Of a stretch of 46,666 bases of DNA, positions 10,940 to 11,067 are shown piece after piece. The DNA comes from Pseudomonadota bacterium. Its GTDB lineage: Bacteria > Pseudomonadota > Alphaproteobacteria > SHVP01. The stretch covers positions 1 to 46,666 of the forward strand of contig JAQBYN010000023.1 of NCBI GenBank assembly GCA_027622715.1. The letters are read 5' to 3'. The position numbers and the translations under genes were made by a program. Every line of letters starts with the position of its first letter. Positions within the stretch are counted from its first letter, which is position 1. Below the pieces are notes generated by a model, which saw only the letters and a list, made by a program, of their open reading frames with translations, searched no databases and was not told the origin of the DNA.

Positions 10940-10974
10940 AAAAAAAGGCCCGCCGTTGTGCCGACGGGCCTTTT
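10940..10974 (-). terminator. Intrinsic terminator after rsmB / in the guaA leader
   Basis: On the minus strand AAAAGGCCCG and CGGGCCTTTT form a 10-bp stem around a 12-base loop, followed by a run of seven T. It could end the rsmB transcript. It is also only 52 bases before the guaA ATG, so it could act as an attenuator. Confidence 0.8.
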
Positions 10975-10988
10975 GCAGGGCAGCGTAT

Positions 10989-11067
10989 GTGCATGTCCGG
11001 AAGGGGGTTCCAACCGACACCGAAGCTGCCACGGCTAGACAGCCTGTCCGTGTCGGCAGACATGCAC
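10989..11067 (-). ncRNA. Candidate structured leader RNA upstream of guaA (three-way junction)
   Basis: Three nested stems can be drawn. P1 pairs GTGCATGTC (10989-10997) with GACATGCAC (11059-11067), nine pairs. P2 pairs CCGACAC (11014-11020) with GTGTCGG (11050-11056), seven pairs. P3 is GGAA-ggggg-TTCC (10999-11011). The intrinsic terminator follows 15 bases downstream on the minus strand. The P2 segment TGCCGAC (minus strand, 11058-11052) can instead pair with GTCGGCA inside the terminator (10965-10959), as in an attenuator or riboswitch. It matches no RNA class that I recognise. It could also be an independent small RNA. Confidence 0.4.

Follow-up and report, generated by a model that had tools for sequence, protein, structure and literature searches.

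The spacer between rsmB and guaA in this 46,666-nucleotide stretch (contig JAQBYN010000023.1; the whole stretch is called the window below) encodes a structured RNA element, and the question it raises is whether this element controls guaA from within its leader or belongs to a separate RNA. The original prediction proposed a riboswitch or attenuator and added as a side remark that the element might be a small RNA of ~130 bases ending at the terminator; the remark is the better fit, a small RNA restricted to this lineage, with an exposed C-rich loop, being the most likely identity of the element. The genome (G000; 3.15 Mb in 86 contigs, alphaproteobacterial by its RsmB relatives) belongs to an order for which the genome collection contains ten genomes, all of a single family, and the rsmB-guaA spacer was read in six relatives: the congeners G001 and G002, G004 from another genus, and G003, G006 and G007. 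On the minus strand, 11067-10940 forms a three-way junction followed by an intrinsic terminator, which lies 52 nt ahead of the guaA ATG. The parts are as follows.

11067-10989, minus strand: three-way-junction domain (fold, compensatory changes, and a covariance model that matches G000, G001 and G004 only)
11067-11058/10998-10989, minus strand: stem P1, 10 bp including one U-G (fold)
11057-11050/11020-11013, minus strand: stem P2, irregular, with an upper hairpin at 11045-11023 (fold)
11011-10999, minus strand: hairpin P3, GGAA-CCCCC-UUCC, with the C-rich loop CCCCC (fold and sequence identity in relatives)
11074-11068, minus strand: 5' strand (GAGGGTC) of an optional outer stem P0, weakly supported (folds; 83% of cells paired over 2 pairs)
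10974-10940, minus strand: intrinsic terminator AAAAGGCCCGTCG-GCACAA-CGGCGGGCCTTTTTTT, with seven T (sequence and fold)

The position and stems had been predicted correctly, except that the whole feature is on the minus strand. The structured RNA domain is real. The minimum free energy of the whole RNA is -73.2 kcal/mol compared with -51.6 +/- 4.2 kcal/mol for shuffled sequences (z = -5.1; none of 200 shuffles was as low), the domain without its terminator still gives z = -3.65 against shuffles, and the complementary strand folds weakly by comparison (z = -1.8). G001 and G004 carry the same architecture in the same spacer with a terminator behind it, the fold of the G001 counterpart having z = -5.0. 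A model built from the two congeners (G000 and G001) recovers the G004 copy with E = 0.0016 within the G004 spacer, but only E = 0.45 when 72 kb is searched. When the three sequences are aligned 97% of cells pair, and changes on both sides are found in 11 of the 24 pairs as against 3.9 in shuffles and 1-4 in slid versions of the alignment, in which paired cells drop to 22-48%. P1, a short helix, has five two-sided changes among 7 pairs, none of which is broken. Both the fold and this covariation bear out the closed multi-stem domain and terminator that had been described, and the compensatory changes in P1 and P2 for which the original prediction had proposed to look among relatives are present.

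All 13 letters of P3 are identical between G000 and G001 and 12 of 13 are shared with G004, while identity in P2 among the homologues is only 38-47%, so the P3 sequence itself has been kept, beyond its stem. P3 is the only sequence-invariant part, and we infer that this hairpin may serve as a binding site or as a seed for pairing. G000 and G001 each contain a single copy of the 13-mer, and 58 other genomes contain none. With the three-sequence covariance model, G000, G001 and G004 yield one copy apiece, and the seven remaining genomes of the order yield no match. A separate candidate match in G003 (E = 0.19) was rejected when the locus was read. Over 386 sampled Alphaproteobacteria genomes the same model finds no credible copy, and a wider family in the class was rejected as the two matches obtained (E = 0.015 and 0.029 per genome) are at chance level among that number of genomes. 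A search of the region with Rfam 15 gave no family at the gathering threshold, purine riboswitches and 6S included, which confirms the earlier statement that the element matches no recognized class. The best weak match was Thr_leader, which scores 22.6 bits where its threshold is 55 and for which the best-aligned part is the terminator hairpin. Known Rfam classes were thus rejected, as was 6S RNA, which is encoded elsewhere in 10 of the 10 genomes.

The reading that we favour, with slightly better than even confidence, is that the element forms a structured RNA of its own, ~125-135 nt long and ended by the terminator, which is encoded past rsmB, does not belong to the guaA mRNA and would pair with other mRNAs through its C-rich loop. 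Two of the features by which a GsrN-like small RNA with a C-rich loop would be recognized are present: the conserved structure ends in an intrinsic terminator, and the C-rich loop is its best-conserved part. The RNA would come either from a weak promoter just past rsmB or from cleavage of the guaB-rsmB mRNA at its 3' end. Held out by the rigid scaffold of P1 and P2, the CCCCC loop would then pair with other mRNAs at G-rich stretches, in ribosome-binding sites or elsewhere in the leader, much as the C-rich-loop small RNAs of Alphaproteobacteria do. The genes concerned and the candidate promoter of the RNA are as follows.

13891-12428, minus strand: guaB (open reading frame)
12372-11107, or a longer frame from 12402, minus strand: the upstream gene, which we take to be rsmB (16S rRNA methyltransferase B), a name adopted from the original prediction that fits the family (open reading frame and gene order)
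10887-9340, minus strand: guaA, presumably GMP synthase from what we know of the family (open reading frame and conserved gene order)
11101-11073, minus strand: weak candidate promoter of the RNA, TTGCCG (11101-11096)-17-CAATGA (11078-11073), found with a matrix from the 6S promoters of the order

Several points weigh against an independent small RNA. The candidate promoter ranks 11th of ~373,000 placements in the window, but it scores well in G000 only, and the comparison gave no convincing promoter of the RNA that is conserved; because the G001 counterpart is poor, the RNA could equally well be processed from the rsmB mRNA. When GGAAGGGG-N(3-14)-ATG was searched for under strict criteria, no target common to orthologues emerged among the loci read (of the G004 matches, only some were read as loci), so that we can only infer action in trans. 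The homologues in the data number three (G000, G001 and G004), and their alignment was fitted to the structure, which makes the pairing counts lean towards it. The element is absent on reading from the spacers of the congener G002 (85 nt), G003 (47 nt) and G007 (58 nt); the G002 genome is 87% complete, yet its spacer was read directly, and as this congener lacks the element it must be dispensable.

The alternative that survives best, although we consider it unlikely, is that the element is the structured 3' end of the guaB-rsmB mRNA (stability hairpins plus terminator) with no function in trans. The absence of a clear promoter and the lack of the element in three of the relatives fit such a role, as do the spacer terminators, which are found in G000, G001 and G004 and also in G006, there after an unrelated stem. 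A terminator alone would suffice for a 3' end, however, and a three-way junction kept across two genera, its 13-letter hairpin nearly invariant, points to more than stability. In G006 the model R2 gives only 3.0 bits; the site (L010 1500-1316, minus strand) has an unrelated long stem, then CCTCCCTCC, then a terminator, and is possibly another small RNA at the equivalent position. More tentative again is an extension of the small-RNA reading, in which the element would represent a new RNA family of one alphaproteobacterial order, with a junction scaffold carrying a near-invariant GGAA-C(4-5)-UUCC seed or protein-binding hairpin, which the guanine-nucleotide operon would express and through which GMP synthesis would be coupled to the translation of other mRNAs.

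We regard as improbable the proposal that a riboswitch or attenuator governs guaA through read-through of a guaB-rsmB-guaA transcript. The genes form a row in that order, all leftwards on the minus strand, which is collinear in G000 and six relatives, and a closed junction between rsmB and guaA with a terminator ahead of guaA is what such a switch would look like; the best-conserved part, however, is the terminal hairpin and not the junction, and guaA appears to have a promoter of its own.

10925-10897, minus strand: predicted guaA promoter, TGGATT-17-TAGGTT, 9 nt ahead of the guaA ATG (comparison of relatives and matrix)

The region upstream of guaA (past the terminator where there is one) was compared in seven genomes, and in six of them TGGAYN-17-TAGSTT is present, its end lying 6-9 nt from the ATG; the G004 counterpart, TAGACC-18-TATTTT, is weaker. 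A matrix built solely from four relatives that lack a homologous RNA (G002, G003, G006 and G007) gives 10925-10897 the top rank in the window, both strands included. The promoter is kept in relatives with and without the RNA. A generic sigma-70 scan detected no promoter, and missed the terminator too. The usual spacing puts the predicted transcription start of guaA on the ATG or no more than ~3 nt from it, which would make the mRNA leaderless or nearly so; this appears to hold in all seven genomes (-10 box 5-9 nt before the ATG). Since this promoter lies past the terminator of the RNA, the element most likely lies outside the guaA mRNA and would be neither its leader nor a guaA switch. A transcript start downstream of the terminator, which the original prediction had itself named as telling against a switch, is what the promoter prediction indicates, rather than a 5' leader transcribed with guaA from an upstream promoter only. 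The proposed competition between P2 and the terminator fares no better. TGCCGAC and GTCGGCA are indeed complementary in letters, but a complement of length at least 7 turns up in 19% of dinucleotide shuffles, the pairing has an ensemble probability of 0.0 and forcing it costs 22.3 kcal/mol; nor is it conserved, as it has no counterpart in G001 (where the longest complement is a different 9-mer elsewhere) or G004 (5 nt). With no stable or conserved antiterminator and a predicted promoter beyond the terminator, the guaA riboswitch or attenuator reading is not supported. Highly improbable, and rejected, is a leader-peptide attenuator in which the short frame ATG AGG GTC ... TAG at the start of the element (13 codons, from 11076 in the window) is translated, as G001 reads ATG TAG at the equivalent place and the frame is not conserved.

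Upstream of guaB, in the same operon, a more plausible attenuator candidate came to light in the comparison.

14047-13891, minus strand: guaB attenuator candidate in the rlmE-guaB spacer (comparison of three congeners)

In G000, G001 and G002 a promoter-like block with GATAAT (14026-14021, minus strand) is invariant. A hairpin with some compensatory changes follows it, and between this hairpin and guaB lies an intrinsic terminator (13947-13924); there seems to be no space for a second promoter ahead of the gene. The guaB leader is the more plausible attenuator candidate of the two. The arrangement is absent in G003, G004, G006 and G007. A 41-codon frame (14013-13888, minus strand) begins right after the promoter, is gapless in the three congeners and runs through the terminator, its TGA overlapping the guaB ATG (ATGA); as conservation is lacking in the middle part of the peptide, its translation is uncertain. 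A second GCCGCA(G) in this leader (13979-13968 versus 13947-13930, minus strand) might replace the 5' arm of the terminator; a GCCGCA copy is present in the G001 and G002 leaders too.

The analysis of the rsmB-guaA spacer removes a false riboswitch lead at guaA and contributes a small-RNA candidate whose fold is supported by covariation and which has no Rfam match. If the RNA is expressed, its conserved C-rich loop is a direct handle for target finding. A guanine riboswitch lies upstream of guaA in some Firmicutes, and the present element resembles it in placing a three-way junction near guaA. It differs in having no Rfam match, a predicted guaA promoter past the terminator and a C-rich pentaloop on P3. 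Ligand analogues of the guanine riboswitch have been described (PMC2858708). Closer in principle are two alphaproteobacterial small RNAs, which the element recalls in its pattern of conservation, with a freely covarying scaffold and a C-rich hairpin that stays fixed. GsrN of the Caulobacteraceae (~100 nt) is likewise lineage-restricted and has a C-rich loop as its best-conserved part, this 5' loop pairing with a G-tract in the katG leader (PMC5869019); the present loop, unlike that of GsrN, sits on a three-way junction after rsmB, and no homology is claimed. PmaR of Agrobacterium also has an accessible C-rich loop, which it uses for target pairing, but it has a spoon-like long stem in place of the three-way junction and belongs to another lineage and locus (PMC6234868). 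The likeness to GsrN and PmaR is one of working principle and not of homology.
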